Source: Bryoerythrophyllum caledonicum (Eukaryota > Streptophyta > Bryopsida > Pottiales > Pottiaceae). From it: 64,000 bases of DNA. Both the position numbers and the translations under genes were made by a program. Of this stretch, positions 10,124 through 58,020 are shown piece after piece. Location: contig OZ020520.1 in NCBI GenBank assembly GCA_963971425.1, forward strand, positions 7,482,553 to 7,546,552, given 5' to 3'. The notes under the pieces were generated by a model that searched no databases, was not told the origin of the DNA, and saw nothing but the letters and a program-made list of their open reading frames with translations. The first letter of the stretch is position 1; the number at the start of each line of letters is the position of its first letter.

Positions 10124-10347
10124 GGTGCTTAACTCTCCAACTCCAGCAGACCCGTGCGGAAAGTAAAAACAACATTAAATTAGTGCATCAACCTCAACAT
10201 GAGCTACAAGACACACTATAATGTAGTCATTCTGTGAAGTTAGACACTGTATTGGCAACTTCAACTAATATACCATTCAGTACTATTTGACAAATAGGAT
10301 TGTTTGCTTCTACTAATGACAATTCAGAATTAACTTTTGACTATCAG

Positions 10348-34990: not shown

Positions 34991-36250
34991 TAGATAGGTA
35001 CAAAGACTACATACTAATATATAGAAACCGTATAGTAAAACATACCCATAGGGTACTACATATAGTATTTAAGCAATACTCCAAAAAAATAGTAGTACGC
35101 AAGTATGCCAACACAAAATACAAAATACAAATATACTATACAAAATACAATCATTGTATTCAATACCACATTCAATACAAATACTATACCAAATACCTCA
35201 AAGACTACTATACAAAAAACTACTATACCCCATATAGTACAATAAACATAAGAAAACATTATAAATTATGCACAAGAATTGAGTTGACACAATATTATAC
35301 GACATTTAGTATAAATGACATAAATACTGATACAAATACGAGTACATACGCTGCTACTAGCACAAATACCAATACATACGCTGATATGTGTATTCATACA
35401 TGTACTAGTACGTACACTAGTGAGTATACTGATACGTATACTGGGATATATATTGGTACGTACACTGATAAAAATACTGATACAAACTTTAAAAAAATCG
35501 ATACAAATACTAATACAAATACTGGTACAAATACTGGGCCGAATACTAACATAAATACTAACAAGAATAGTGGCACAAATACCAAGATAAATATTAAGGC
35601 ACATACTAACACAAATATATGTGTGAATACTAGTATAAAAACAAACATAACTACATATACACACACATACACAAAAACAACCACACACCATCAAAAAAAC
35701 ATACACACATACAAAGATGAATACATACAATCAAATAAACAACAAATCAAATATCAAAGCCACACACAAAAACAAAAAATCCTAAAACAAGACAAAAAAC
35801 CCACCTACTACAAAATACTAACACTAAACATGAACACTAACATAAAATTAAACCCAACTACAAATACACACACATATACAAAAACAACCACATACCATCA
35901 AAAAAATACACACATACACATATACAAAGACGAATACATACAATCGAATAAACAAAATAATAATAATAATAATAAAAAACCACAGCCACATACAAAAACA
36001 AAAATAATAATAATAAAAATAATAATAATAAATCTAAAACATAACAAAAAACTCACCTACCAAAAAATACTAAGAATGAATACGAATATAAAAACAAACA
36101 CAACTACATATACACAGACAACCACACACCATCAAATAAACATATACATACATACATACAAAGACGAATACATACAATGAAATCAACATCAAAGCCACAT
36201 ACAAAAACAAAAAAACCCCAAAACAAAACAAAAAACCCACCTACTACAAA
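34991..36250 (+). repeat. L2 linker, Thr/Asn-rich coding-like repeats
   Basis: An AT-rich stretch to ~35,290 is followed by ACAAATACTNAT-type repeats (35,320-35,650) and then ~200-bp units that each end in (K)KPTYYKIL-like codons (near 35,800, 36,050 and 36,240). The last unit passes straight into the 2A-like motif. A 298-codon open frame covers most of it (35,284-36,180), but its content (TNTN, YTHTYTK) mirrors the DNA repeat. Confidence 0.7.
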
Positions 36251-39200
36251 ATACTAATACTAATTGGAGGAGACATAGAGACTAACCCAGGACCCATGCC
36301 AAACATACAAAAACGACACCCCGCCTCGCACAAAAAAAATGCCAACACATACTTTATACCTAACACCATAAAACTACAACCCGAATACAAACACATCGCC
36401 CAAAAATTTGCCCCCCTTCTTAAAACCACACACACAACACACCAAAAATATAATGACACATACACATACATTGCCATATATATAAACCAACATAAGGAAC
36501 ATCCTCCATCCCACATTCTATATGCCCTAGTCATTACTACACACCCCAACGTAGACCTCTGCAACCAACTCCTAAACACTCAAAATCAAAACATAACCCA
36601 ATGGATTAATACACTCCTACACACTCTACATAATCTACAAAACCCGCCCGAAAGACACATTAACACCCCACATCTGTACACAACTTTTCTTAAAACCAAC
36701 CTAAACATCATAAACCATAACACATCCATAAACAAAGAATTATATGACTTCATACATAACCAAAATACACCCCCATCCAATGACACGATAAAAAAAAAAT
36801 TCCCCTACCTCCCAAATACAATCATAAATGAGTCACTAAAATGCCTCGACCCCCTCCCAGAATACACACACCCCCCCCACCGCCGAACCACATCCCACCA
36901 TCATACCATAACCCACACATGAACAACAACAACACAAACATAATAACATGGAACGCCTCATCCCTAAATACCGCACTCCCAAACTTACAAAACATCATTA
37001 TACACACTAACACACCACCAACATTCATAGTCATACAAGAATCAAAATTATCGGCCAAAAAATCCACAAAATACATACATAGGCTATTCCCAGATTTCAA
37101 ACTTATCTTCAATAATACACATGCCCTAACACGGTGCATACAACAAAGAAGGCCGTATACACCGGGCCGTGGGGGTCTCCTCACTCTCATACACAAAAAC
37201 TACGCCTTCCCGGGCAATGTCAAAAAAATTCTCACCCCAATGAACATATCCCCATACCTCCAGACTATAGAAATTTCCAATCACCCACTACAACCATGGC
37301 TAATCCACCACTTATACATGCCATCCCACCCCGAAGACATTAGACTCACCGAAGACATCAAAACTAACATCACCACCCATATTACCAACAACCTTAACCA
37401 CAACCACATCTTATGTGGCGACTTCAATAGAGACATTGCCCTCATAGGGAGACAAAACGGAAATCAACTCACACCACCACAAATAATAGACCTTCAATGG
37501 AAAGAATTTACAGAAACCCTAAATTTTAATTATATTCCCACAAACACTACATACTCTAGACAAGGAGGATACAACTATAGCAACTAGAGCCTAATTGATG
37601 GATTCTACATCCGTGCAAATAACCATACTACATTTACTTCCACAACAAATAATAACATCCATCTGAACTCCGATCACTCACCTATACAACTCCACATCTC
37701 AAACAACACATTTATAAACCGTACACCAACCAACACACACAATGACTACATACGTATCCTCAACCCCATCCCACAAAACAACATAGAATCATTTAATATA
37801 AAATTCTTCGAAGAAAACTCACTACGCATTAACTGCCTAATAAATGAATTAGAATCTAATAACCATCTCTTCCAAACGCAATGGCAAAAAGCTTGTCACA
37901 CCCTAGATACACTTGACATCAACAATATAACCACCACAATTGAACAAACCTGCAAAGCCCAACCCATACCACAAATGACAAATCGAACATCACAACAAGG
38001 CGGATATTTACCCCGTAAATTATCCAAAGCATGGAAACAACACCTAAACATCTATCACACTATACGCAAAACCATAAGAACCGTAAATAACAACCCCCAA
38101 TGGCGAAATCACCCTATCCTTAATGAACTACAAAACCTTCTAGACACACAAATCCCTAATCCACCCCCTATACACTTACCTCACGACACATATATAAAAA
38201 ACATAGTACTAATTGCAAAAACCGCCAACATACAAGCCCGAAAAATCACCACCAAACATACCCAAGAAAACATCCGAAAAGCCATCTCCAAATATAGACA
38301 ACTATATGAAATTAGCCCCAAGAAAATAAACAAAAGAATATTCAAAACTATGGAGTCCCCACCACTAGATTGCATCACCGACCAATATAATAATATACTA
38401 ACTAGCCCAGAAGACATCACAAACGAAATATTTAACCAACAAACAAAAAACAACACACCTACAGTAAACACATGCAACTATCAACCGGACCACCACTCTA
38501 CATGCACATGCGCAGTAAGACAATATCCATGGCATGACCTAGATGGATTCACATTTGAAAAAAGAGGAGACTCGGAAACCCCGCTACACACATACTTTAA
38601 TCAAGCCACATATGACACTTGCCTACGTAACCTAGGTAATAATAAAGCCCCCGGACCAAACCGCATACCGAACTCTATCCTAAAAAATATGCCCCAAGGT
38701 TCCATAAACTACTAAATCTCTTCTTCTCCCACTGCTATAAACAAAAACAGATCCCTACTTCATGGAAAACAAGCGCAACAATCCTATTATACAAAAAAGG
38801 AGACCCTTCATGCTACCGAACCATATTCCTATTGCATTAGCCAATACCATCTATAAACTATTTACGAGCACAACCACATCAATACTATCATCATATGGTG
38901 AAAACACAAAATACTACACGATAGTCAAGAGGGGTTCCGCGCAGAAAGAAGCACTGCTTAACAAATCCAAACAATAATAGCCGCAATAGAAGATGCACGA
39001 TTTACAAACCAAGACATATTTATATTATATGTTGACTTTAAAAATGCCTTCGGCTCTATTGACCACGCTAGACTTTTAGCCATAATGACGGACCTTGGAT
39101 ACCCCAAAGACGCCGCCGCACTAGTGGAAAATATATACTCTGAATCCTCAACCTCCTACATAGGAGAACACTTTGGTAAAACTAAATCCATAGCCATCCA

Positions 39201-41542
39201 AAGGGGAACAATACAAGGAGATACCCTAAGCCCATATTTGTTCATCATATTTCTAGAACCACTACTTAGATGGCTAGATAGAGGCAACAATGGATACACA
39301 TTCGGGACATCACAAACCACCATCAACTCTACGGCATGCGCAGACGACCTTGCAGCCATAACCAACAAAATCAACGCAATAAAAATACAACTTAACAAAA
39401 TAGACAGGTACTGCAGTTGGATAGGTATGGATGTAGGGGTCCCAAAATGTGCCATCACTAGATGCCCAAATAAATCAAAAACAAACCCCACCGCATTCAA
39501 AGCCCTAATACAAACCTCTAATATTCATTACCGAAACCAACAAATACCCGTACTACACCAAAACAAATCATACACATATTTAGGAATAAGTCTCGTCCCC
39601 TCCCTAAAATGGAAAACCCAAATACATGCCACCACCACAAAATTAATCAAACAATGTAAAGAACTAGTAGCTTGTTCGGCTACTGTGAAACAAAAGATAA
39701 AAATGATCGACACAGTTTTAAGACCGGGCGTGGCATACAGCTTCTACGCGGTACCATACTCAATGCCCGCCATAAAAAAACTAGACCAAAAAATAACTAC
39801 CACACAAAAAACCGTATGCGGCATGCCAAAATGTATGTCTAATACAATATCCCAACTACCACACATCCTCTTTGGACTAGAAGCCTTCTCACTAAAAAAT
39901 GCATACCTTAGATGCATAGGAGAACAACTACAGAACGCTCTAAATGACACTGGTAGACTTGGGAAAATATACAGGGGTCTAACACATCACATCCTCGCCC
40001 AATATGGGGGGGCCGAAAACATACTTAGAATTAAAAAGACAAGTTGTACAAGATCACCAATAACACGTACCTTCTTCCTACTTAAACATGTAGCAAAAGT
40101 CCACCTAAAAAGTACTCTCCCTAACTTTCTTATAGAACCAACAACACTAGAAAAATCTAGGACTCTTGAAACACAAAGCCATAATACACTCAACACACAA
40201 TTATCTCAAAAGTTATTTCAAAAACTCCTATCAAAAAATATCTACGAACTAAAACAAATCTTCCTACCTAACGGAACACACATCATGAACAATGATGAAT
40301 TTAAAACCTACCACTTCACCCCATCAAAACTAATTAAAAGTGCCCTCAAAATCGCACGACAACTCTTTTGCCACCCAATATACCCCCCTCCACCCAATAC
40401 CCATACCAATACAAATATATACTCCTATACATTTAAAGACCCTTTCATCACCATAAACAACGACATCATCCCAAGAAACTCCCCCCCACAACCAATACAC
40501 CCTTCCCACTCCCACTCTCACCACCTCCTCCCCCCAAACCACATCCTAAAAAACCCCACCACATATCCCATTAACAACATTATACACCACGAATACAAGG
40601 AAAAAATAGATAAAAACCAAATCAAAAACAACTACACTAGATATCTATGCCAATGGACTCACAATAACCACACCTACAATAAATGGCTCCCTCAAAGAAA
40701 CCTCTTCCCAAGACACAACCAAAACACCATTACACATAATACAAATAAATTGACACAATACTACCAAAAAATTCAACACAAATTCTACACCGAAATTATC
40801 CGAGCTCACCACCTACAAACTCAACCACAAGACACAAGGTCCGTCACCCCACCCATAATAATCCCCCTACTAAACATCTACACAACGGAATGCAACCCTG
40901 AAAACAACATTCTCACCACATCTAATACAATTAGAATTGACAAAGACCAAGCACACTTATACGAAGAAGATGGACGACACCTCTTCACCATCCCAATTAC
41001 TAGGCTCACATGGTTATGGAATCAATACAATACTAAACTACAAACCCCTACAAACATTGAACCAACAACCCAACCATTTGAAGCCGAAGTCATATGGCTA
41101 TACCAAAGATACAAATATAGAATACCAAAAAATAACCCCCTTAAACTTACACAATATATACTACCCATACCTATACTAAACTCATTAATCTCCACATTCA
41201 ACATCCAACACTCATACTTCTCCTCCCCCGTCACATGCTCCACCAATCTCAACAAATTTTATTCCCCCTTTGAAAGAGATAAAATATTCGGATCACTAGG
41301 CAAAGCCTTTTACCACAAATGGATAGGTAATGGTATGGCCCACCCACACAATGAAGAAAAAACACAAAAAATACTACATTGGGCCCGCCTCGCAGCCAAA
41401 CATGACCCAAACCACACCTCCACCCTAATCATAATCCCTGACAAAAACTGGTATCAAAACCCTAACCCACACTCGGGCCCCTTTCCCGACACACACATCA
41501 TTGCACTATTTGAAGCGAACTCAATAACATACGAAGAACCCA
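36222..41542 (+). pseudogene. L2 ORF2, N-terminal part
   Basis: From the 2A motif through an N-terminal domain of unknown role (MPNIQKRHPASHKKN, ~36,296-36,860), AP-type endonuclease (NASSLNTALPNLQNII near 36,950; CGDFNRDIALIGRQN near 37,420) and reverse transcriptase (DFKNAFGSIDHARLL near 39,045) to the post-RT region. The catalytic box reads ACADDL near 39,340, where relatives have AYADDL. The frame changes near 36,900, 37,590, 38,715 and 38,970, and an 832-codon stretch (39,085 on) then stays open to the L3 insertion point. Protein identity to L1 looks lower here than after 53.8 kb. Confidence 0.8.
36266..36295 (+). other. 2A-like motif of L2
   Basis: Codes GGDIETNPGP, followed by MPN. 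It fits the D-(V/I)-E-x-N-P-G-P consensus of 2A peptides, at which ribosomes release the chain between Gly and Pro and go on. It lies near the start of ORF2. Confidence 0.8.
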
Positions 41543-41551
41543 GAAGAAGAA

Positions 41552-41576
41552 CGTCGGTTCCCGAAGAGAACCGGCG
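41552..41576 (-). other. L3 3'-terminal hairpin
   Basis: Stem with loop GAA; arm GGTTC pairs with GAACC, whereas the SINE has GGTCT with AGACC. Two base pairs have thus changed on both sides together, which supports a functional RNA structure. Confidence 0.75.
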
Positions 41577-41788
41577 TGAATAAAGTGTTTGTTTGTTCCA
41601 CTGCAAAGACCATGCCCACCGACAAGGAATTAGCGAACTGGAACTACTTCCCCCTTTCGAGGGTAGACATTATGTGACGAGTAGCCAGAAACCAACCAAC
41701 AACGACCAACCACGACCACCCTAATCTAAACAACAAAAAGCAAAACCACACAGGCAGCCAACCAGGAAGAGACAAGGTGGCAAAGTTT

Positions 41789-44700
41789 CTAAGGTGGGTC
41801 TTGCGTATCACGGAGGACTTGGTTATTTTCGATTTTGCGTTTATGTAGTAAAATAGACATGGCATGTTGAATAGCGATGGTGTTGATGTTTTTAAAGGTA
41901 GTTTTAATTGTATCAATGGGTATCTTGAAGGTATCTTCAAGAGTTTTCATAGATGGGATAAAGGTGGTGGCACGAGCGCCGGATGTGATAACAATAAGGG
42001 GGTCCACTTTCCAACCGAGGGCAATGATGTCGTTTATGAAGGGTTGGTATTTATCTATTTTGTTTTGTATTGTTTCTGGGGAGAATCTATTGTTGCAATA
42101 TGTAAATTCGATGAATTGAATGGTGTAGTCTTGGTTGATGTTCTCGGGTGGTGGGTCATTGTATGGTAAGCCTTTGACACAAAGAATGTCAGGTTTGAGC
42201 CTAGCGTTGCAGTGACATCTTTGGGTCATACATGAGCATGGAAGTAGCCATGGGGGGACCGTGTTTTCTTGTGGATTGTTATTAAAAGTGCCGGCGTTCA
42301 TTAGTATGAAACATCTCGATTTTTTGTAGGAGGTGATTAGTTTTCGTACTTCCCATACCGCTTCATTATGTCTTTTGATAATTAGAGAGTGAATGTGGTG
42401 GTTTTGGCATTTGAGTAGTACATGAAGCCATGTGTCGGGGTCCGTTGAGGGGCATATGGGGGATGTTATGGATGGAAATCTTTCTATTCCAAAGAAGAGT
42501 TGTTTGTGAGCGTTTCCCATATACTGACCCGTACGGAATTTAATGAGGCATGTTATTTGTGAGTCTGAGATGATGGGGTTTTTCCAAAAGTTTGTAGAGA
42601 GTTCATTATCTATGTCGTTATTGTTAGTCCATTTTTCTATGTTAGGAATATTTTCTGAGATTGTGTCCAGGTTGTTGTAGAGGTCTTGTTTTTTGAGATA
42701 TTTGCCCAGAAATCTGATTGGGCCTTTGTCGGGGGTATCTTCTTTGGAAGGCCAATCTTCTTTTTGAAAGTAGTATGGGGTGGCATGGGCATGTTCGTGA
42801 GGGTCTTTGGCGTTTTTGTGTGTTTTTTCTCGGCCTTCTTTTGCAAGCTTGTCTGCTTGTTTGTTGCCATCAATGTTGGCATGGGCTCTTACTTTGTGAA
42901 GGGTTGTGATTTGTGTACGGTTTGGTAACATTTGTACCATTGATGTTAATATGGTTTGGTCGGGGTGGCTATTGTGAAGGGTAGGGTGTGTTATTTGAGT
43001 ATTAAGTAGGTAGAGTGCGTTTATACAATCGGTGAATATATGTGCGGGTTCATCATTGTATTTTGTTGTGATGATTTGTAGTGTTTTGTGAATGGCCATT
43101 AGTTCTGCTCTGAGTATATTTTGGAGTCCATGGAGTCTTTTGGCTAGCATGATTTCTTTGATAGAGTTGTAGATGCCATAGCCAGCTTTTTCTCTTCTCC
43201 AAGATCCTAGACTAATTTGTTCTGGTGGTTTAAAGGAGCCATCGGTGTAGTAACTGTATGCGGGGTTAAATTTTGGTGTGGTGTGATTTGGATAGTTTGG
43301 AAGGGGGGGCGATGTGACTAGGTAGTATAGTGTATTGTTGATATAGTTTAGTTTTGACCAATTTTTACTACGGTTAACAGGGGTTTGTGGGGGTGTCGGT
43401 GAGGTCAGTTTTGTGTATGATTTTTGTATATTTAAATTTTCTGCTATGGAGGTAAGTTCGGCAAGTTGCTCAAGGGTGCCAAGGGTTTGATTTTGATGGT
43501 GGGCACATAGTATTGGTAGTGTAGATGGCTCGATTCGGGGTTTGTTTAGCTCGGGTGGGATGGTAGGTTCTTCGTATGGTATTGAGTCTGCTTCGAATAT
43601 TGCAATGATATGGGAGTCTGGGAATGGGTTTGAGTGTTGGTTGTTGTTTTGGTACCACTTGTTGTTTGGTATGATGATGATCGTGTTAGTATTAATTGGA
43701 TCATTTTTGGCGGCGAGTCGAGCCCAGTGTAGTGTTTGTTCTATCTCTTTCTCATTGTGGGGGTGAGCTATCCTTTTACCGGTCCATTTGTAGTCAAAGG
43801 CTTTTCCCAAGGATCCGAATATTTTGTCTCTTTCAAAGGGTGAGTAAAATTTTTTTAGTTTTATGGAGCAGGTGACTAGAGAGGAAAAATATGATTGTTC
43901 TATGTGAAAGTTTGAGATTAGTGAGTCTAAAATGGGTGTGGATATTGTGTATTGCGCATTTTTGAGGGGGTTGTTTTTTGGTATTCGGTATCTATACCTT
44001 TGGTAGAGCCAGATTAGTTCGGTTTCAAAGGGTTGGGTCTTTGGTTCGATGTATGTAGGAGTTTGTAGTTTTGTGTTGTATTGATTCCAGAACCAATGAA
44101 GTCTAGTGACGGGGATAGTGTGTAAATGTCGGCCATTTTCTTCGTAAAGATGTGCTTGGTTATTGTCAATTTTGATTGTGTTTGAGAATGCAAGGATGTC
44201 ATTTTCAGGGTTGCATTCTGATGTATGTATTTTTAGGAGTGGAATAATTATTGGTGGTGTTACAGATCTTGAGTCTGGGGATTGTTCGTGGGGGTGGTGA
44301 GCTAAGATGACATCTCAGTAAAAAAAAATTGAGTTTTTTGGTAGTATTGTTTTAGTTTTTCGATGTTTTGTGTGGAGGTGTTGGTGTTATGTCGAGGGAA
44401 AAGGGCTCTTTGGGGGAGCCATTTGTTGTATGTGTTGTCATTATGATGCCATTGGCACAGATATTTTGTGTAGGTATTTTGTATATTATTTGTATCTTTG
44501 TGTTGGATGTGTTTATGGTGTATAATGTTACTAATGGGGTAGTTGGTAGGACTTTTGGGGATGAATGTTGGAGGTCGGGGGTGATGTGGGTGAGGAGGGT
44601 GGGGGGGGGATAGATTGGTGGGGGGATGTTTCTTGGGGTGATGTTATTGTTGATTGTGATGAATGGTTCTAGAAGTATATGGGAGTATGGGTGTATATTG

Positions 44701-47700
44701 CAAGGAGGAGGGCATGTGGTGGGACATGTTGGGTGGCAAAAGAGTTGTTTGGCAATGTTTAGAGCACTTTTTAGTAATTTGGATGGGGTGAGGTGGTATG
44801 TTTTGAAGTCCTCATTGTTCATGATGTGTGTGCCATTGGGTAGAGTAATTTGGCTTAGTTTAAAGATATTTTTTTAGAGGAGTTTTTGTAGAAGTTTTTG
44901 GGAGAGGTGGGTATTTATTGTGTTGTGGTTCAATGTCTCTTGTTGCCATATCATTTCTAGTGATGTAGGGTTAATGAGGAAGTTTGGGAGCGTACTTTTA
45001 AGGTGGATTTTAGCTATGTATTTTAACAAGAAGAATGTTCGTGTTATAGGAGATCTTAAGCAGTCACTTTTTTTAATTCTAGGTATGTTTTCAGCACCTC
45101 CATATTGGGCAAAGACATAATGGGTGAGTCCGTTGTATATTTTTCCAAGTCTACCTTTATCATTTAAGGCATTTTGTAGTTGTTCACCTATACAACAAAG
45201 ATATGGGTTTTTAAGGGAGAAAGCTTCTAGCCCAAATAGGTTGTGTGGGAGTTGGGTAATTGCATTTGACATGCATTTTGGTAATCCACATATTGTTTTT
45301 TGTATGGCTATTATTTTTTTGTCCAGTTTTTTGATGGCAAGCATAGAATATGGTACACCGTAGAAACTATATGCCACGCCTGGGCGTGTTACAGTATCCA
45401 CCATTTTTATTTTTTGTTTCATGGTGGCCGGACATGTTGTTAGTTCATTGCATTGTTTGATAAGTTTTGTTGTTGTATGGATTTGGATTTTCCATTTTAG
45501 AGATGGGACAAGATTGGTACCTAGGTATATGTATGGTTTGTTTTGATGTAGTATAGGGATTGGTCGATTGCGATAACTGATGTTAGAAGCTTGCATTAAT
45601 GCTTTGAAAGTGGTAGGGTTTAGTTTGGATTTATTTGGGCATCCTGTAGCGGCACATTTTGGGACTCCTACGTCCATACCGGTCCATTTACAATATCTAT
45701 CAATTTTATCTAGTTGTGTTTGAATAGATTTAATTTTGTTGGTTATGGTGGCTAGGTCATCCGCGTATGCGGCAGAGTTTATTGTGACTTGTGATGTGCC
45801 AAAAGTGTATCCATTGTTGCCTCGTTCTAGCCATCTGAGTAGTGGTTCTAGGAATATAATGAATAGGTATGGGCTAAGGGTATCCCCTTGTATAGTCCCC
45901 CTTTGAATGGGTATGGGTTTTGTTTTCCCGAAGTGTTCTCGGATATAGCAGGTGGACGATTGAGAGTATATGTTTCCTACAAGAGTAGTTGCATCTTTTG
46001 GGAATCCAAGGTCCATCATTATTGCTAGTAGTCTAGCATGGTCTATTGAGCCAAAGGCATTTTTGAAGTCAACATATAGTATGTATATATCTTGGTTTGT
46101 AAATCTTGCGTCTTCTAGTGCGGCTATTGTAGTTTGTATTTGTCGTGCGGTACTCCTTTCTGCTCTAAAACCTTCTTGGCTATCGTGTAGGATTTTGAAT
46201 TTTTCACCGTATGAAGATAGTATAGAGGTGAATGTACTAGTGAAGAGTTTATATATTGTGTTAGCTAGTGCAATTGGTCTATGGTTAGGTAGAATAGATG
46301 GGTCTCCTTTTTTGTAGAGTAGAATTGTTGTACTTGATTTCCAAGACGTTGGTATTTGTTTTTGTTTGTAGCATTGAGAGAAGAATAGGAATAATAGTTT
46401 ATGAAATCTTGGGGGCATGTTTTTGAGTATAGAGTTAGGTATGCGGTCTGGGCCTGGGGCTTTGTTGTTACCAAGGTTCCTGAGACATGTGTCGTATGTG
46501 GCTATATTAAAGTATTTATGTAGTGGGATTTCTGGTTTGCCGTGTTTGTCAAGAGTAAATCCATCAAGGTCATGCCATGGGTATTGGCGTACAACGCATG
46601 TGCATTCATTTGGATGTTGTGGTTGATAGTTACATGTTGGTACTGTTGGCCTATTACTTTTTGTTTGTTGGTTGAATATTTCATTCGCGATGTCTTCAGG
46701 GCTCGTTAGAATATTATTGTATTGGTTTGTGATACAGTCCATTGGCGGTGATTCAAGGTTCTTAAAGACTTTTCTGTTGATTTTTTTGGGGCTAATTTCA
46801 TACAGTTGTCTGTATTTTGAGATGGCTTTCTTAATGTTATCTTTGGCGTATGTTGAGGTTATTTTACGGGCTTGTGTGTTGGCATTTTCTGCAATTAGTG
46901 CAATGTCATTTATCCATGTATCGTGGGGTAGGTCCGGCGGTGGTGGACTGGGGATTTGGGTGTGTTGGAGGGTTAATAGTTCGTTGCATATGGGGTGATT
47001 ACGCCATTGGGGGTTGTTTTTTTACGATTCTAATGGTTTTCCTTATAATATGGTATGTAGTGAGGTGTTGTTTCCAAGTTTTTGAAAGTTTGCGGGGGAG
47101 ATACCCGCCTTGTTGAGAGGTTCTGTTTGTCATAATAGGTATTGGGTGAGCTTTACAAGTTTGTTCTATTGTGTCAGAGATTTTATTGATGAGTGTGTCT
47201 AGGACGTGGCATGCTTCTTGCCACTGTATTTGTGATAGTTGACTATTGTTTTTGAGGGTGTTTGTGAGAGAATCTATTTGCATGGAATTTTCTTCAAAAA
47301 ATTTTGTGTTGAATTTTTCTATGTTATCTTTTGGTATAGGGTTGAGTATTCGTATTGTGTCATTATTTGGTATTGTGGGAGTTCTGTTGATTAATGTGTT
47401 GTCTGGTATGTGCAGTCGTATGGGCGAGTGGTCCGAGTTGAGAGTATCATCAATGTTTGTTGTAGAGGTGTATTGTGTATTATTGTTTGTATTTATATAA
47501 AAACCGTCTATTAGACTCCAATCGCTGTAGTTGTATCCACCTTGTCTAGAGAATTGTGTGTCAGTGTGGATATAAGTGAAGTTCAGGTTTTCTGTGAAAT
47601 GACGCCATTGATAGTCAATGTTTAGAGGAGGGGTGCTGTGATTTACATTTTGGCGACCTATTAGCGCTATGTCTCTGTTGAAGTCTCCACATAGTATATA

Positions 47701-49116
47701 TGTATGATTAGGGTTATTATTAATTTGAGAAGTAATAGTATTTTGTATGTCTATGATATATCTAGTATCTTTGGGGTGGGATGGCATATACATGTGGAAG
47801 ATTAACCAAGGTTGTAGTGGGTGGTTAGTGATTTTGATTATTTGGATGTAAGGTGATATATGCATGGGGTAGGAATTTTGTTGATGTTGCCCGGGAAGGC
47901 ATATTTTTTGTGTATTAATGTGAGGAGTCCACCCCGACCTGGTGTGTATGGTCTTCTTTGTTGGATGCATCTAGTGAGTGTAAGTGTGTTGTTAAAGATG
48001 AGTTTATAGTCTTGAAATATATTTTGTAGATTTTGTGGCGGTAAGTTTTGTTTCCTGTATAACTATGAGGGTCGGTGGTGTGTCTGTGTTTGTGACTAAA
48101 TTTTGTAGACTAGGAAGGGCGGTGTTCAGTGAGGAGGCATTCCATGTGATTATGTATGTATCTTCTTGGTTTATATTGTTGTTTTGGTTTTGTGGAGGGA
48201 TGTCGGGAGGTGGTGGTGGGGGACGGGTGTATTTTGAAATAGGGTCTAAGCATTTTAATAATTCATTTATGAGGTTGTTGGGAAGGTACGGGAATTTTAG
48301 TTTTATTGTTTCATTAGAGGGAGGTATGTTTTGACTATGTAGAAAATCATATAGGTTTTTACGTATTGAGGTTTCATGGTTTATGATATTTTGGTTGTCA
48401 TCAAGAAACTTTATATAGGGGTGCGTGATGTGTATGTGACGTTCTGGGGGGTTTTCTAGGTTTATTAGAGTTTGTAGTAGTGTGTTGGTCCATGTGATTG
48501 TGTTTGAGTTTTGTGGGTTTAGGAGATAGTTGCATTCATCTATATGTGGATGTGTAGTGACTATTAGGGCATATAGGATGTAGGGTGGTGGGTGTGTATT
48601 TTTTTGTTGTATGTATTGGGCAATGTTTGGGTATGTAGTGTTTTGTATGTGGTGTAATGTATGTATATTTTTGAAGAAGGGTGCGAAGGTTTTTGTAATG
48701 TGTTTATATTCCGGTTGGAATTTTATGGTATTCGGTATAAAGTATAATTTGGCATTTTTCTTATGTGATGTAGGGTGTATTTTTAGTATATTAGGCATGG
48801 GTCCCGGGTTGGTCTCTATGTCTCCGCTTAAAAGTAGTAGTAGTTTTATGTGCTTGGGATTAGTGGTATGTTTTCTAGTAATTCCTTTTTGTGATATTGT
48901 TTGGTGTTTTCTATTGGTCTTAGAGTTGTATTTTTTTGGGATTTTATGTACCCCTTTGTTCTGGGGGGTTTTTGGATTTATATTTGTAGTTATGGCGAGC
49001 TTAGGGATATTGGTTGTATATCGGCTTTTTGGTGTTTTAGTTTTTATTTCTATATTATAGCATGGGATTATGTCTTGTCTTGTGGTTATGGTGGTAGTTT
49101 TGTTTTTGTTGTGCAT
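41789..49116 (-). pseudogene. L3 ORF2 polyprotein
   Basis: About 2,440 codons. The leader of ~110 residues ends in LLLLLSGDIETNPGP (48,843-48,799). Endonuclease: NASSLNTALPSLQNL (~48,150), CGDFNRDIALIGRQN (~47,690), LNSDHSPIRLH (~47,445). RT: DFKNAFGSIDHARLL (~46,065), AAYADDLAT (~45,770). RNase H with Asp-Glu-Asp-Asp all present: YYTDGSFK (~43,250), ILRAELMAIHK (~43,115), FTDCINALY (~43,040), DGNKQADKLA (~42,860). Zinc knuckle C-x2-C-x9-H-x4-C (~42,465-42,410). The C-terminal domain has KPDIL (42,195) and FIEFTYCNNRF (~42,110), then KIDKYQPFI, the layout of a PD-(D/E)XK nuclease. The frame changes near 48,000, 46,990, 44,870, 44,340 and 43,900; the last 673 codons are open. Confidence 0.85.
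48799..48828 (-). other. 2A-like motif of L3
   Basis: Codes SGDIETNPGP preceded by LLLLL, a full match to the 2A consensus including the hydrophobic run before it. It would release a ~114-residue leader from the rest of ORF2. Confidence 0.85.
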
Positions 49117-49795
49117 GTTATGTGTGGTTGTGTTTTTACGTGTTTTTTTGTTTTTATTTGCGTTTGTTTTTTGTTTATGTTTGTATTTTTGTGTTGTTTT
49201 TTCATGTTTATGTTATGGTGTAGCTTTTTGTTTATATTTGTTTGTTGTTTTTTTAATGTTTTGTGTATAGTTGTATATGTGCGTGTATTTATGCGCAAGT
49301 ACTTGTGTGTGTATTTATGATTTTTTGTCCTTTTTGTTTGTGTTTTTGTATATGTGTTTTTTGGAATTCTTAAGTATGTGGTTTTTTGTGTATTTGTTTG
49401 GGAATGTGTTATGGAATTGTATTTATGTTTGTGTGCTTGTATGTATGTGTTTATATAGTTTTTTGTACTTATTATTTGGTATTCGTAATTGGTATAGTAG
49501 GTGTAGTAGTTGGGGTAGTAGTCCTTATGGTGTATGTATTTTGTATGTAAAATATAGTATTTAGTATTTGTTTGGTATATGGTGAGGTATTTGGGTATTA
49601 TGTAGGCATCCCCGTAGTGTGTATTTTTATTTGTATAAAAAACCGTACAGTATTTGTATATAGTTTTGAAGTATGTAAGGATTTCTATGTGTATTGTACT
49701 AGTGAGGTAGTTTTATTTTCTACTAGTAGGATACAGTATGTGTAGGGTATTGAATACTAATTGGTAACTATGTATTACCTTGAGGTCTTTGAACT
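49117..49795 (-). other. L3 linker between ORF1 and ORF2
   Basis: GT-rich on the plus strand with TATTTGTAT-type short repeats. Read on the minus strand it gives Thr/Asn/Lys-rich codons (KKQHKNTNINKKQTQIKTKK). It is shorter and less regular than the linkers of L1 and L2. Confidence 0.6.
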
Positions 49796-51424
49796 TTACA
49801 TGTTTGGCGACCTATCTTCAAGTCTTGGGGGCATTCTTCCTTTCATGACTTGGAATGCAAGTCTTGTGGCATTCATGGCTTCCTCCATCTTGTCTAGGTG
49901 TTCCATCAAGGAGTTGTGGAGGGTGTCGGTGTACTTCTTGCTTTCTTCTATCACCTTCTTGTTGTTCTCTTCCAAGGCCTCCTTCAACTCTTTCTTGGTG
50001 ATGGCGGTGTCTTGTATCTTGAAGGTTGCCACGGTGTTGACCATGGCGGCATTGATGTCGTTGAAGCCAAATGCGTTGATTTGTTCCTCCGTGGGGGGTT
50101 GTGTGCCTTCCAAGCTCTTCCAATGTGGAGTGAAGTCTACAAAATTGTCGCCAATGTCGAAGTGTTTTCTAACAAATTGCTTGTATACTATTGGGTTAGC
50201 ACATTCCACGTTAGCTTTGCCATTGTGCCTACCTCCAATTTCCTTATGGAACCATATGGACTTAACATTATTCACTCCCATGATTTTTTGGATAGCACTA
50301 GTGACATCTTGCACATTCATGAGAAGGGGTAATGGAGAGAAGGTGAGGGATATTGCATCTTTCCTTGCCTTAGTCTCAGGGGTCATACGACCACCATTGT
50401 ATGCCTTCCTTGCCTTGATGACTTCGTGGTGGGTGGTGATGTGTTGAAGTTGGATCTTGGAGGCTTGTATAGGGGTGGTGGCGGCAATGAAGGCGTGGGG
50501 ATCTCCTTCTCCCTTGGTCACTCCCGTAATCTCATAGTCTTGGCCATGCTTGAAGCTGTTGATGAGGATGTCCTTGAAGAGTTGGTGTGCGGAAATACCT
50601 ATCAATGTGTCACTACGCACTTGCACGGAGAGGTTAGAAGCATTAGCAATTTGGGGGTAAGCTTTACATACTTTTCCAATGGTGTTTTGGTTGTTTATGT
50701 AAAGAATGAAAGGTCTAATTCCTTTGAACAACATGAGAGCATCGGTTCCGGGGTTAAATAAGTGAAGTTTGAACATGCCGATCCACACTCCCTTTTGCCC
50801 ACCTCTTTTAACACTATGACAACGTATATAGATTAGGTCCATAACTCCTTCTCCAAGTTTAATGTCCATGTTATCTAGTCTATGTGTTATCATTTTATGA
50901 ACATCATCATGCAATAGAATGGAAGGAGGGGGTTCAAAGTGGATAACCACGTGGAAACCATGTGCCAAACCTGTGGCACCGTAGACTTTGGTGTGTTGGG
51001 GAATCTGTGTGATGTTGTAGTGTTGCTCCTCGCTTCCCGCTCGTGCAATAGGATAGTAGAGCTGGGGAATCCTTGGATAGGCCACCTTTGACATCTTGAA
51101 CTCTTTGGCCTCGTGTTCCAGGAACCCTCTAGTCACCATGTCTTCCACCTTTTCGTCATATAGGAGTTCTTCTAGCCCTTCCTCGATTGCAAGGCGCTCC
51201 ATGTCTTCAAATCCTAGCCAAAACTTTAGAGACATGGTCATTGCGTTAAGGGGAGGGGATTGGCTTACCTCTTCCTCTGTGCTCCTGCTCTTCTTGGTGT
51301 TGCCATTTTTCTCCTCTGTGTTCTTTCTTATTCCTTTCTCTCTCCAATTTATTGTTGAACTTGTCCCCACTCCATCAATGTCCATGTTTTCCTCGAACCT
51401 AAGGTTTCGTTTTGTCATAGACAT
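49796..51424 (-). CDS. L3 ORF1 protein, intact
   Basis: 542 codons from ATG at 51424. The acidic N-terminus (FEENMDIDGVGTSS) is followed by a Lys/Glu-rich stretch (RKNTEEKNGNTKKSRSTEEE), then the family core from LKFWLGFEDMERLAIEEGLE. A domain with LTFSPLPLLMNVQDVTSAIQ, SIWFHKEIGGRHNGKANV and FVDFTPHWKSLEG follows. Its beta-alpha-beta spacing could be an RRM-like fold, which is common in LINE ORF1 proteins; this is my inference. The C-terminal ~90 residues (KELKEALEENNKKVIEESKK) should form a coiled coil, which would allow multimers. No CCHC knuckle is visible. It presumably coats the element RNA. Clear relatives are in L1 and L2. I know of no named family for it. Confidence 0.8.
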   Translation of the reverse strand: MSMTKRNLRFEENMDIDGVGTSSTINWREKGIRKNTEEKNGNTKKSRSTEEEVSQSPPLNAMTMSLKFWLGFEDMERLAIEEGLEELLYDEKVEDMVTRGFLEHEAKEFKMSKVAYPRIPQLYYPIARAGSEEQHYNITQIPQHTKVYGATGLAHGFHVVIHFEPPPSILLHDDVHKMITHRLDNMDIKLGEGVMDLIYIRCHSVKRGGQKGVWIGMFKLHLFNPGTDALMLFKGIRPFILYINNQNTIGKVCKAYPQIANASNLSVQVRSDTLIGISAHQLFKDILINSFKHGQDYEITGVTKGEGDPHAFIAATTPIQASKIQLQHITTHHEVIKARKAYNGGRMTPETKARKDAISLTFSPLPLLMNVQDVTSAIQKIMGVNNVKSIWFHKEIGGRHNGKANVECANPIVYKQFVRKHFDIGDNFVDFTPHWKSLEGTQPPTEEQINAFGFNDINAAMVNTVATFKIQDTAITKKELKEALEENNKKVIEESKKYTDTLHNSLMEHLDKMEEAMNATRLAFQVMKGRMPPRLEDRSPNM

Positions 51425-53811
51425 ATTATTATCACTACTTGTTGTCTTATTTATCTTGCTTTTAGAATTGTTAACAAAAAGGAAAGAAGGTGAGCAACGT
51501 ACCTTTTGAGGGGGCTTACCTTTAGTCTTGTATGGGAGGATTTGGCTCTCCTCAATAGGTCGCTAGATCACAGCGGTGGGTCGTTGGTTCCTCGCAGTGG
51601 GTCGCTGGCTCCTCACAGTGGGTCGATGTTTCCTCGCAGTGGGTCGCTGGCTCCTTGCAGTGGTTGCTGGCTCCTCTCAGTGGTCGCTGGGTCCTCGCAG
51701 TGGGTCGTTGGTTCTCCGGCAGCATGTCATTGTTCGTTGCTATGGTTCTCAGGCTCTCGGCAGTAGGTCGCAAAATTTTTTAGCAGTAGTCGTTGGCTCT
51801 TCTGCAGTAGATCCTGGCTCCATACAGTGGTTCGTTGGCTCTTGGCAGTAGGTCGCTGGTGAGAGAACCTGGCACGATTCTCAGGCACGAACGAACATGG
51901 CATGACGTGGTATGTTCCAGGCACGATGTAGTACTCTCAGTCTCGTGCAGGGGTTTGTGTAGTGTTGCTGGGCTGGCTGGGATCTCTTGCCGGTTCTCTC
52001 TCCTTGTGTGCTAGTCTTCTCCGAGGTCCTCTCTTTGCTGTGTTGGTCTTGCTCTTCTACGGTCTTGAGTTGGTGCTGCGTGTTGTGTACTTCTTCCTGA
52101 TCTCTAGTGAGCACTGTTCTTCTTCCCACCGTCTTTTGGAGTTGATGATGGTTGTTGAATGCCTTCGGCGCTTGTCTGGATCTCCTGATCGGGTTATGGC
52201 TGTTGAGTTCTCTGCTGATCTTGTGTCGTCACAGTTCGGGTGCGGGCTCATGTTCCTCGAGTTGGTTTCTTGTTCTTGTGTTGTTGATGATCTTGTGCCT
52301 TGTGCTTGGATTAGTGCTTGAGTTATTAGGTCTTGCTCTGTGCACCTTCTTGTCAAGTCAAGGGTATATGAGGCTTCGGGCCAAAGTCTGTACACATGAG
52401 TCGATGCACCTTCCTTTCGGGTCTGAGGAGTCTTGTTTTCGATGTCCGAGTTTGAGGACGGTACGCCTGAGTCAATGCACCTTCTGAACTGGCCTGAGGA
52501 GTCTTGTTATGATGTCCAAGTTGGAGGTCGGTACACCTGAGTCGATGGACCTTCCGAGCGGGACTGAGGAGTCTTGTTTCGATGTCAGGGTTGGAGGCTT
52601 ATCTCGGGGTCGGAATTTCCTTGTCAAAGTCGTTGGTCTTTCAAGTTCAGTTCTCCGGATCACGAGCTCTAGGATCTAACGTCAGGTTAATTTGTGTTGC
52701 AGGTGAAGAGGCGGCCCTGCTCAGCTCCCTTCTGTCCACTTTCCTGCTGTCCACTTCTCCCTGTTGTTGACGTCGACTGCTGCTGTGTCTCCGAGTGAGC
52801 TGGTCCAGCAGTGTTTTTTTGACTTATAGTGTCTCTGCGGGGGCTCTTCAATGCAGGTGTTCTTCACAGTGTTGGCGCTGATCTTCTCTTGGACATAATT
52901 CAAGTGTACGTGCAGGTCCGGAATGTGGGCTTGTGTACTTGGTCTTCCTTCTGCATACCTGTAGTTTTCCAGAGAAATTTGTGCAGCGCTTCCGCACACT
53001 ATTATAGATGTGTAACTTTCTATGTGTGTGCTAAGGGTTTATGTGATCTAGGGTTAGGTCAGCTTAGTAGTTATAGTCTAGTATTATCACTCTCAATGTT
53101 CTAATCTACTTATTAGGTTAAATCACTAAGAGACTTGTATTGCAAAGAGTGCTTTATCGGAGGTGTGTGGGCTATAGATCTAGTGTTAATGCAAGGATCT
53201 TAAAAGCAATTGTTTGAAAAACTTACTGCGGTAGGTGATACTTGTTGCTTGCTGCTGCTGTTGTGCCGTTCTCCAGGGTTGTGTGCTTTGTTGCTGCCTA
53301 CTGCTCTTGATGTGCTGAAGTGTTGTTGCTTCCTTCTACTGCTGGTGTGATTGTTCGCCAAAGTTGTGGATGCGCTGATTGTTGCTTGTAAGACTTGTCT
53401 TTCAATAATAAGGATGAATATCTAGGTTTTGGGGGGGTGCGACGACTAGTAAGGAGATCTGTAGATCTGGTATCTAACGCTCAGATCTGGGTGGATCTTG
53501 TTTGTAAGAGGTTAACTCAATCTATGTGCCAACACTTGCTCCCATGTTTCTCAGTAAACGCACATTATAGATCTAAGCCTCATTCACTCAAAAAAACCCC
53601 AGATCTGCACGTATGTGAGCTCTTTTCCAACACTATCTGCTTCCCAGACTCTCCTTTTCGAAACTCAAAAACTTGTGGTGAGCTCTCACCAAGGTCAGCC
53701 ACCTCTTGGTGCCCACAATCTTTGTTGTTCGAAACTAGCTCACACCTCCCCTCACCAGAAATTACGGAGCTCACTCAGTCTTCATTCTCCACTCCCTCTA
53801 ACGAATCCACC
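51425..53811 (-). other. L3 5' leader with two minisatellites
   Basis: GGTCGCTGGCTCCTCGCAGTG-like units repeat at about 51,560-51,870 (plus-strand reading; the complement gives the GCGACC words also seen in the L2 leader). Three units of 70-71 bp start at 52,390, 52,461 and 52,531 (GTACACCTGAGTCGATGCACC, then GAGGAGTCTTGTT). The conserved leader box GCGGAAGCGCT lies at about 52,985-52,995 (minus). No open frame of note. Confidence 0.6.
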
Positions 53812-55603
53812 CGAAGAACCCACTATCCCACTAGATCTAAAAAAGCCTAGAATTGAACCATCTACTCTACAAATAATATGCATCCACCACCAAAATCAAA
53901 CTCTGGGCACACAAAAACAACTAGAAGAACTCTCCTCCATAGCAAAGACTCTAAACATACACCGGATACTCACAAAATTGGCCCCACCAACGCCAATGCA
54001 AACACCCGTCAACAGTAACAAAAAATGGTCAAAACTACACTACAATAACAATACACTAAACTACACCCTAACACTCCCACCCCTCCCGGAGTATCAAACT
54101 AACACCTCACCTAAATTTAACCTCGCATATAGCTATTATACGGATGGCTCCTTCAAACCGCCAGAACAAATTAGCCCGGGGTCATGGCGCAGAGAAAAGG
54201 CCGGTTATGGAATATACAACGCTACGAAAGAAATCAAACTAGCCAAAAGACTACATGGACTACAAAATATCCTTAGAGCAGAACTAATGGCTATCTATAA
54301 AACGCTAGAGATCGTCTCAACAAAATATAACAATGAACCGGTACATATATTTACAGATTGTATTAACGCACTATATTTATTAAACACCCAAATAACACAT
54401 CCTACCCTCCATAATAGTCACCCCGACCAAATCATACTAGAATCAATGGTCCAAATGATACTAAAAAGAAGACAAATCACAACCCTCCACAAAGTCCGAG
54501 CCCATGCTAATATTGATGGCAATGAACAAGCGGATAACCTTGCAAAAGAAGGAAGAGAAAAATCACATAAAAAACACGCCCACGCCACCCCTTACTATTT
54601 CCAAAAAGAAGATTGGCCCTCCAAAGAAGACACCCCCGATGAAGGCCCGGTTAGATTCCTGAGCAAATACCTCAAAAAACAAGACCTACATAACAATCTT
54701 GACACAATCACAAACAACTTTCCTAACATAGAAAAATGGACTAACAACAATGACATAGACAATGAACTCTCTACAAATTTTTGGAAAAACCCCATCATCA
54801 CCGATTCACAAATAACATGCCTTATCAAATTCCGTACTGGTCAATACATGGGAAATGCCCGTAAACAACTTTTCTTTGGAATAGAAAGATTTCCATCCAC
54901 AACATGCCCCATATGCCCCTCAACGGACCCCAACACATGGCTACATGTTCTTCTCAAATGCCAAAACCACCACATACACTCCCTAATTGTTAAAAGACAT
55001 AACAAAGCCGTATGGGAAGTACGAAAACTAATCACCTCTCACAATAAATCGAGATGCTTTATACTAATGAATGCCGGTACTTTTAATAACAATCCACAAG
55101 AAAATACAGCCCCCCCCTAGCTACTCCCATGCTCATGTATGACCCAAAGATGTCACTGCAACGCTAGGCTCAAACCGGACATCCTTTGCGTTAAAGGTTT
55201 ACCATATAATGACCCACCACCCGATAACATTAACCAAGACTACACCATTCAATTCATTGAATTCACATATTGTAACGATAGATTTTCCCCGGAAACAATC
55301 CAAAATAAAATAGATAAATACCAACCCCTTATTGACGACATCATCGCCCTTGGATGGAATGTTGACCCCCTTATTGTAATCACATCCGGCGCTCGTGCCA
55401 CCACCTTTATGCCATCTTTGAAAACCCTAGAAGACACCTTCGAGATACCCATTGAAACAATTAAAACCTCCTTTAAAAACATTAATACCATAGCTATCCA
55501 ACATGCCATGTCCATTCTTCTACATAAATACAAAATCGAAAACAACCAAGCCCTCCCCGATACACAGGACCCCCCTTTAAATTCCTCCTCCGCATTGATT
55601 TAG
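53812..55603 (+). pseudogene. L2 ORF2, C-terminal part beyond L3
   Basis: Resumes at EEPTIPLDLKKPRIEPSTLQ exactly where the first part stops at 41,542. It contains RNase H (YYTDGSFKPPEQ at ~54,133; FTDCINALYLLN at ~54,350; AHANIDGNEQAD at ~54,510), the CPICPSTDPNTWLHVLLKC knuckle (~54,905-54,960) and the C-terminal KPDILC ... FIEFTYCNDR domain (~55,175-55,275). Only one stop (55118-55120) breaks it. This part is strikingly close to L1 and L3. Confidence 0.85.
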
Positions 55604-56395: not shown

Positions 56396-58020
56396 TCACA
56401 TTTTGGACGGTCCATCTTCAATTCTTGGTGTGCACATGGCTTCGGTTAGTGCTTGCAATGATGCAAGAGTTGCACTCATCGTGTGTTGAATGCTAAGCAT
56501 TTGGGTCTTCAATTCTTCACTCTTCTTGTCCGCATAAGCTTGTGTTTCCAATCGCATTTTCTTGTTACTTTCTTCCACCGCGGTCTCCACTATGGCAAGG
56601 ATGTCGTTTTTCGTGATGTTCTTAGATGTCTCCTCCATTTTGAAGGCCTCCACGGTATTCACAATGGCTCTGTTAACGTCCGCAAAGCCAAATTCTTCAA
56701 CTTGTTCCTTGGTAGGAGGATCAATTCCATCAAGGCTTCTTCGATGTGGAGCGAAGTCCACGCAGTGCCCACCTAGCTTGATAACCTTGCCCACAAACTT
56801 CCTATATATTATAGCATTAGCACAATGGACATTGGCACTTCCATTGTGTCTATGTCCATTGTCACGATGGAACCAAATGTGGTTTATGTTACCCATTTCC
56901 ATAACCTTATAAATTCCAGCCCTAGTGTCTTCAACATTCATACGAATAGGCAATTGAGTTAGGGTTAGGGTAATGGCATCTTTCTTTGCCTTACTCTCCC
57001 GTATGTTGCCACTTGAGGATTCTCCTGTGTTGCCCGTTGGTTGGAGCATCTCGTGGTTGGTAGCAACTTGGTGTAGCTTAATCTTCGCCGCTTGTTGTGG
57101 AGTTGGTGCAATGATAAATGCATGACTCTCATCTTTTCCTTTCTGCACACTAGTTACTTCAAACTCAAGCCCATGGTTAAAACTATTGCGAAGGATGTCC
57201 ACTAAGAGAGAGTTGGCGGAAATGCCCTTGAGAGACTCACTTTTAATTTTTGTGGAAAGATTAGAGTTCCTTGCAATGGCATGATAACTCTTACGTACTT
57301 TTCCTATCACATATTGTTCATCTAACTTGAGGATGAAAGGTCTAAGACCTTTGAAGAGGCCTATGCCATCAACCTCGGGCTTGAGAAGGTGCAATTTAAT
57401 TGCACCCGCCCAAACCCCCTTCTTCCCTACGTTTTTCAAACTCATGCAAAGGATGGAAATAGGGTCAATAATCTCATTACCTACTTCAATTTTCATGAAT
57501 TTTAGCCTATCAATTACCATGGCTTTGACATCATCATGCATGAGGACAAGATTGCCTACCTCAAAGTGTATGGACACGTGGAAATCAAGGGCAAGTCCGG
57601 TAGTTTCACTTACCTGGATGTCGAATGGTATCTGGGTTATGTTGTAGTGTTGTCCAACCGCCTCCTTCCTTGCCCTAGGATATAGGGTTTGAGGAATTCG
57701 TGGGAAAGCTGGGGTTGCTAGTGTGATCTCTTTGGCCTCTATTTCTTTGACTCCTCTTGTTATAATATCGGGTATGGACTCATCATTGAATAGTGGCTCA
57801 AGACCTTCCTCCTTGGCCATATCCTCCATTACTTGAAATCCCAACCAAAATTTGAAGGGGGGCCATTGGATTCAAGAGTGAGCACCATACCTTCCTCATT
57901 GGAGCTCTTCTTTTTCTTGCTTGAGGAGGATACTCCATCTTTGTTCATCGTGGAGGCAATACTTGGGTGTCGCTTAAGATTTTCCCCGGTTGCTTCAATC
58001 TCCATGTCGTCATCATACAT
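56396..58020 (-). pseudogene. L1 ORF1
   Basis: Two overlapping open stretches: 58,020-57,829 (MYDDDMEIEATGENLKRHP ...) and 57,844-56,396 (482 codons). They join across one frame change near 57,840. The core is GFQVMEDMAKEEGLEPLFND, VWAGAIKLHLLKPEVDGIG, HIWFHRDNGHRHNGSANVH and HCVDFAPHRRSLDG; the C-terminus SATLASLQALTEAMCTPRIE matches the resumed end of L2 ORF1. A coiled coil precedes the end. It is close to L2 ORF1 and more distant from L3 ORF1. Confidence 0.8.

Follow-up and report, generated by a model that had tools for sequence, protein, structure and literature searches.

A putative StopGo/2A peptide at the N-terminal boundary of ORF2 in a land-plant LINE

The window (the whole stretch of 64,000 nucleotides analysed here) contains three copies, L1, L2 and L3, of one kind of LINE with separate ORF1-like frames (Table 1). 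The initial annotation had placed a 2A-like ribosome-skipping motif at the start of ORF2, and translation of the minus strand showed an exact match to D(V/I)ExNPGP in L3. The motif of L2, the hydrophobic run before the motif (HIKLLLLL in L3 and KILILI in L2) and the Thr/Asn-rich leader of L3, which on translation is rich in Thr, Asn and Lys, also proved to be as first read. Downstream of the motif and in the same direction are domains for endonuclease, reverse transcriptase, PCIF1_WW and RNase H, in agreement with its position at the ORF2 start. L1 reads GGDIETNLGP, with NLGP instead of NPGP, as had been reported. The pattern search of the window with up to two mismatches returned three matches (two exact, and L1 with one mismatch), compared with 0.08 expected.

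ORF2 is interrupted in all three copies of the window, and L1 contains an in-frame stop in addition to NLGP. Because all three are frame-broken, activity cannot be judged from them; open frames do exist in identical young copies at other places of the genome. The NLGP of L1 is plausibly a loss of function, as p17 is almost exclusively Pro in the StopGo peptides of a 2026 survey, as excerpted (PMC12846837). The window also encodes a protein at 8948-10174 (-) with a weak match, below the curated cut-off, to a plant F-box At3g26010-like beta-propeller.

Table 1. Positions of the LINE copies and their parts in the window
Feature	Position	Strand	Remark
L3 motif SGDIETNPGP (core DIETNPGP, 48799-48822)	48799..48828	(-)	exact match to D(V/I)ExNPGP
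L3 putative 2A upstream context (TTNPKHIKLLLLL), where amino-acid constraint appears to begin	48829..48867	(-)	
L3 leader rich in Thr, Asn and Lys, in frame with ORF2 and open as far as the preceding stop; no constraint detected on its sequence	48868..49212	(-)	
L3 conserved all-alpha domain, start of ORF2p (MPNILK...), immediately past NPGP	48223..48798	(-)	
L3 ORF2 piece, APE-type endonuclease	46999..47970	(-)	PF14529 E 3.2e-5, below curated cut-off
L3 ORF2 piece, reverse transcriptase	44874..47021	(-)	PF00078 E 3e-27; nearest solved relative R2
L3 ORF2 C-terminal piece: PCIF1_WW, RNase H, Cys/His-rich	41789..44314	(-)	PF12237 8.8e-10, PF00075 4.8e-12
L3 ORF1, separate frame, stop 976 nt before motif	49796..51562	(-)	
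L2 motif GGDIETNPGP	36266..36295	(+)	
L2 ORF2, several pieces, frame-broken copy	36140..41583	(+)	
L2 endonuclease piece	36832-37587	(+)	PF03372 24.7 bits vs cut-off 24.5
L2 ORF1, stop-to-stop frame	30287..32377	(+)	similar sequence upstream of motif in many fetched loci
L1 DIETNLGP variant, CTG replacing Pro codon	27831..27853	(-)	
L1 ORF2, broken copy, seven open pieces of at least 150 codons	20811..28018	(-)	
Fourth copy, 5'-truncated: RNase H and C-terminal part	53558..55603	(+)	C-terminal part 90% identical to that of L3
Further ORF1 copy	56396..57871	(-)	

The motif adjoins a conserved block, MPNIL..HP..HK. The model of the first domain of ORF2 had a pLDDT of 85, and the domain gave no PDB match at E 0.001 or better and no convincing Pfam match. 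The ORF after the motif encodes both an APE-type endonuclease and a reverse transcriptase. PF14529 scored 38.5 bits, over its cut-off, in the relative P0095, and PF00078 was found in both L2 and L3. Among solved structures, the reverse transcriptase is nearer to R2 (6e-31), which ranks first, than to human L1 (5e-20), which ranks next.

PCIF1_WW (PF12237), which is unusual for a LINE, was found at 41789-44314 (-) and 38962-41583 (+) of the window. A weak chromo-like match, below its cut-off, lies between the reverse transcriptase and PCIF1_WW in 38962-41583 (+). This APE-bearing element also has a C-terminal stretch, KPD...IEFTYCNDRF...K..KY (41792-42517 (-) and copies), which we take to resemble a restriction-like endonuclease signature. 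A possible C-terminal restriction-like endonuclease is seen as a sequence pattern only; the model had a pLDDT of 38.7, with no PDB profile match and no Pfam match over the cut-off. Searches for the loci of relatives elsewhere returned none in viral contigs (reverse transcriptase query and alignment A1 query) and none in genome contigs (alignment A1 query).

ORF1 is a separate upstream frame in many older copies. The ORF1 stops of L012, L014, L016, L017, L022, L024, L026 and L3 were used, and the stop is premature in L021 and L023. The frame difference between ORF1 and the motif is 0, 1 or 2 across copies, and none of 58 leaders (57 homologs and L3) resembles the window ORF1s; an in-frame fusion of ORF1 to ORF2 through the 2A is therefore rejected as a general rule. 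A programmed frameshift from ORF1 is not supported: ORF1 and ORF2 overlap in L026, L017 and L012, with ORF2 in the -1 frame, but no canonical slippery site was seen by eye. A conserved sequence, AACTAATAGCGT(C/T)AAACAACGCT, with a potential small hairpin, lies right after the ORF1 stop in L021 and L024. It is also present in L012 and L026 up to the end of the printed sequence, with TGT for CGT in L026, and a few of its bases are different in L016.

The host is a land plant, as its LEAFY and LHC genes show. The chlorophyll a/b-binding family had 58 genome matches and was found in one of the 14 members of the control set (Synechococcus), and the LEAFY SAM domain was found in the genome (E 1.3e-27) and in 0/14 of the controls. 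The LHC protein of the genome is nearest to the PDB chains 8htu_U and 7xqp_a (470 and 469 bits), the polyprotein 9vfj aside, and the others score about 440 bits and below. We take 8htu_U and 7xqp_a to be from the moss Physcomitrium patens, the chains near 440 bits to be from seed plants, and those at or below 403 bits to include green algae. By LHC similarity, the host is probably moss-like. Contig C7 carries chlorophyll a/b-binding gene matches in both orientations, four of them within 9 kb (27705118-27714122).

The genome search covered 437,360,962 bases in 894 contigs. Absence of the motif from other copies in the genome, which the initial annotation had named as a ground for giving up the 2A reading, was not the case. 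The DNA pattern for DIExNPGP (GAYATNGARNNNAAYCCNGGNCC) had 1691 exact matches (865 + 826), and the reversed-pattern control had none (0 + 0). The first 100 places listed contained 45 different DNA words, 38 of which encode DIETNPG, and thus the peptide recurs and is not one recent DNA copy. The start of the MPN domain, or a one-residue variant of it, follows the motif at all 44 motif places read (42 in the genome and two in the window; locus L001 was left out, and L002 and L004-L008 were dropped as duplicates of L012-L017).

Searches by the domain that follows the motif gave a similar picture. The domain as a protein query against the host genome returned 3825 candidates, of which the best 150 were taken, a sample that favours well-preserved copies. 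Eleven of these are on contig C1, and nine of the 11 lie within the range of the listed motif matches; the exact motif is located 24 nt upstream in eight of the nine, and the ninth reads DIETKPGP. The homolog set comprised 111 proteins, namely 109 found with the N-terminal ORF2 piece of L3, together with P0083 and P0095. They were aligned by the domain after the motif only, not by the motif itself; 90 of the 111 matched, and 67 extended upstream by 8 residues or more. Of these 67, 54 had the core (its third place being E or H), and the 13 without it were one- or two-residue variants (11) or out of frame (2). The column frequencies in 65 homologs were G 0.91, D 0.95, I 0.88, E 0.91, x 0.46, N 0.97, P 0.92, G 0.92 and P 0.97, and the mean over 93 columns of the following domain was 0.68. 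The value of 0.46 shows that the freely variable position of StopGo is variable in these LINEs too.

The residues before the core were compared with those of StopGo peptides. The hexapeptides preceding the core in the homologs are of the LLLLSG, IILLSG, ELLKCG and TLLQCG types. A survey of nearly 10,000 viral StopGo sequences describes, in its excerpted text, an LLLLSG-like class with (A/S/C)G before D at p12, and its motif 6 of this class was active in vitro (PMC12846837). Compared by eye, the upstream hexapeptides fit this class, and the core fits the StopGo/2A consensus (D/G/C/N)(V/I)ExNPGP; on both counts, and within the excerpt of PMC12846837, the 2A reading of the initial annotation is supported. 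His at p14, reported there as functional, recurs in this LINE lineage. The sub-lineage of P0095, P0244 and P0245 has Gln at p14, which lowered activity in other contexts according to the same excerpt (PMC12846837).

P0144, P0239 and P0240 each have a pair of intact 2A sites, arranged in series within a single frame at distances of 44, 140 and 159 residues, and locus L051 has two sites 510 nt apart. These serial sites indicate that multiple StopGo events are likely in some sub-lineages. Decayed second 2A sites were seen in L013, L054, P0162, P0180 and P0243. Some leaders, for example those of P0180 and P0243, include a still-open decayed second copy of the 2A and the domain.

The variant analysis located a boundary of amino-acid constraint upstream of the core. 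It used 39 of the 44 motif places in five families, and each variant was counted once. The omega-like ratio (observed to neutral, amino-acid-changing against silent) in the leader was 1.35 (-150..-105), 1.5 (-105..-75) and 1.05 (-75..-45), with the alignment beyond -75 loosened by indels. It was 0.50 (-45..-24) and 0.22 (-24..0) in the 2A tract, and 0.29 (+24..+75) downstream. The two inner bins (-45..0) differed from the three outer leader bins with a Fisher p of 1e-10, in which the counts are not independent, owing to relatedness among the copies of a family and between some of the clusters. The numbers of stops per bin from -150 to +75 were 13, 6, 4, 0, 0 and 3.

Pairwise pN/pS in four families (37 of the 44 places) was 0.37, 0.47, 0.11 and 0.26 for -45..0, and 0.17, 0.15, 0.12 and 0.43 downstream in the same families. 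The leader bins were mostly 0.57-1.20; the outliers, 0.44 and 4.00, both came from a single five-copy family of low complexity. The core had zero amino-acid change in this analysis because the copies were chosen by the core, and this value was not used as evidence. Judged by these ratios, amino-acid constraint sets in some 15 residues ahead of the Asp, roughly the length of a 2A peptide. PMC11512398, as excerpted, assigns 2A activity to a tract of about 25 residues.

The leader lies upstream of this boundary, and its frame is kept open. In 44 copies, the ORF2 frame upstream of -45 had a median of 126.5 open codons, compared with 2 and 17 in the other frames, and it was the longest or equal in 35 of them. 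Stops per 200 codons were 4.2 in the ORF2 frame and 9.8 and 9.7 in the other frames. By cluster, the ORF2 frame was the longest in 9/9, with medians of 57-200 codons (maximum counted 200) compared with 4-32 in shuffles; a second frame was also open in two DIEK-form clusters (168.5 and 171 codons). Loci L020 and L022 have a long ORF2 yet a stop 17-26 codons before the motif. The median leader length across 63 motif occurrences in homolog proteins was 92 residues, and 50 of the 63 occurrences lie at least 45 residues into the protein, whose start is the choice of the gene caller. As far as these alignments tell, the leader sequence is without detectable constraint while its frame is kept open. 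An open frame with a free sequence is the pattern that a translated and then discarded leader would show.

In-frame AUGs were not enriched in the leader (85, 67 and 94 in frames 0, 1 and 2 of 45 copies). The spacer contained 1.5-6.3% G in nine copies, and its AUG depletion did not clearly exceed what composition predicts (lowest P among the nine, 0.05). Loci L026, L012 and L016 have no AUG from the ORF1 stop to the Met after NPGP. Short Arg/Pro motifs were seen by eye in leaders whose sequence is free elsewhere, at least twice in several of them. SA(Y/S)RPRH and near variants occur in the leaders of P0126, P0152, P0174, P0179, P0196, P0232, P0233 and P0238, and ARP(T/P)GLA occurs in those of P0176, P0177, P0180, P0181, P0205, P0209, P0221 and P0243. 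These motifs might serve as a signal in RNA or DNA and not as a peptide.

A young family was found among the best 150 of the 3825 domain matches, 33 of which share a score of 354.6 and a 3087-codon open frame. Five of its copies (on contigs C1, C2, C8 and C10) were 100% identical to a sixth over 1201 bp. The copy that was read has an intact motif and 739 codons upstream of it. The identity of these copies indicates that a LINE family carrying the intact motif spread recently. In this family, the 3.1 kb preceding the motif showed no ORF1 core and had similarity only to a Pro-rich repeat. The AUGs at -789, -765, -669, -657 and -513 are all in the ORF2 frame. An AUG nearer the motif, at -193, is out of frame (17 codons), and the AUGs from -1289 upstream open short frames. 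The Met after NPGP is in the context CCCAUGCC, with a pyrimidine at -3, which is a weak AUG context.

We consider it likely, from these comparisons of sequence, that the motif is a working StopGo/2A at the N-terminal boundary of ORF2 in a land-plant LINE, and that it detaches a disposable leader from ORF2p, whose N-terminus is thereby fixed. Ribosomes would reach ORF2 in frame through the leader. Once about 15 residues with the hydrophobic run and DIExNPG had been made, the Gly-Pro bond would fail to form. The leader would be released, and synthesis would continue to give an ORF2p beginning with Pro-Met-Pro-Asn. The leader sequence would be irrelevant and discarded, and nothing but the 2A tract and an open frame would be kept. 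For the youngest family, the in-frame AUG 789 nt upstream is a possible start of the leader.

The rival that survives best, which we regard as improbable, is that ribosomes scan or reinitiate through the G-poor spacer and start ORF2 at the AUG directly following NPGP, and that the 2A-like stretch is an untranslated relic. Among the homologs, 49 of 53 contexts have Met next to NPGP, and 18 database proteins are called from this Met. The low G content of the spacer, the absence of an AUG before this Met in three of the nine copies, and the lack of frame bias among leader AUGs are also consistent with such initiation. However, the 15 codons before the core are constrained at the amino-acid level (0.50 and 0.22) and the frame is kept open, neither of which is expected of untranslated sequence. 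The pyrimidine at -3 of this AUG in the young family, and the Arg, Pro, Ile or Leu that replaces the Met in a few relatives, further argue against it.

It is very unlikely that a conserved N-terminal motif of ORF2p merely resembles 2A and that the leader and ORF2p stay fused. The match to StopGo extends from the exact octapeptide to the variation that it permits (V/I, free x, H at p14) and to the Leu-rich (C/S)G context, and the leader ahead of the motif appears unconstrained, although the motif does adjoin the conserved MPNIL..HP..HK block. Still less likely is a partially active 2A for dual targeting, as in sea urchin NLRs, in which the unskipped product would keep the hydrophobic run as a signal. 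The run before the core and the precedent in PMC4981915 (in excerpt) would suit this arrangement, but the sea urchin NLR 2A is N-terminal in that text, whereas the motif here is mostly located well within the protein (50/63 occurrences, as given above). A chance or low-complexity artefact, to which the low complexity of the leader might point, is ruled out for practical purposes by the counts in the window (3 against 0.08 expected), in the genome (1691 against 0) and in the homologs (core in 54/67).

For the StopGo reading of this LINE, we tentatively speculate that the 2A may act as a clean-start device. Ribosomes might enter at no fixed place in a stop-free and unconstrained leader, which is nearly AUG-free in some families, and the 2A might then give the same N-terminus each time. 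Tandem 2A sites might yield a third product in some sub-lineages. On this view of the element, it could be the first natural StopGo of a land plant, and a recently active one.

Ribosome skipping by 2A peptides is known in viruses and in transposable elements of animals and trypanosomes. Odon et al. in 2013 reportedly linked 2A to one-ORF elements and are said to have named CR1, L2, Rex1, Crack and Ingi as the 2A clades; L1Tc is reportedly a 2A-bearing LINE (Heras et al., in 2006). Unlike such one-ORF elements, many copies here keep a separate ORF1, and the youngest family may fit the one-ORF link. Dualen/RandI LINEs have two endonucleases. These LINEs share with the present element an APE-type endonuclease, an RNase H, a reverse transcriptase closer to R2 than to human L1, and the KPD..E..K..KY C-terminal stretch, whereas a second endonuclease fold was not found here (poor model and no PDB profile match).

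2A peptides in non-LTR retrotransposons are established in trypanosomes and other species in the excerpts of PMC4981915 and PMC11512398. The present element has the same APE endonuclease and reverse transcriptase, the same D(V/I)ExNPGP early in the enzymatic ORF and the same Leu-rich context, and differs in its land-plant host and in the RNase H, PCIF1_WW and chromo-like stretch of ORF2. It shares the core octapeptide, the Leu-rich (C/S)G class and the tolerated variants with viral StopGo/2A (FMDV 2A and relatives), as far as the excerpt of PMC12846837 describes them. The upstream product of viral 2A is a functional protein, whereas here it is an apparently unconstrained leader. The sea urchin NLR 2A is likewise a non-viral 2A after a hydrophobic run and is functional in plant leaf cells, but it is N-terminal and doubles as a signal sequence, unlike the motif here (PMC4981915, in excerpt).

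StopGo is only rarely used by cellular organisms according to the 2026 survey, whose excerpted text reports no natural use by plant viruses, though StopGo is functional in plants (PMC12846837). The excerpt of PMC8623073 makes no mention of retrotransposons. No plant LINE with a 2A was among the matches listed in the literature searched, and earlier plant reports are possible. StopGo in LINEs is known; the plant host, the coexistence with ORF1 and the tandem sites look new.

For gene stacking, the finding would provide a natural set of 2A peptides borne by a plant, with variation at positions known to tolerate it. It would make LINE ORF2 expression in plants directly testable. It may also represent a 2A whose upstream product appears to be waste.
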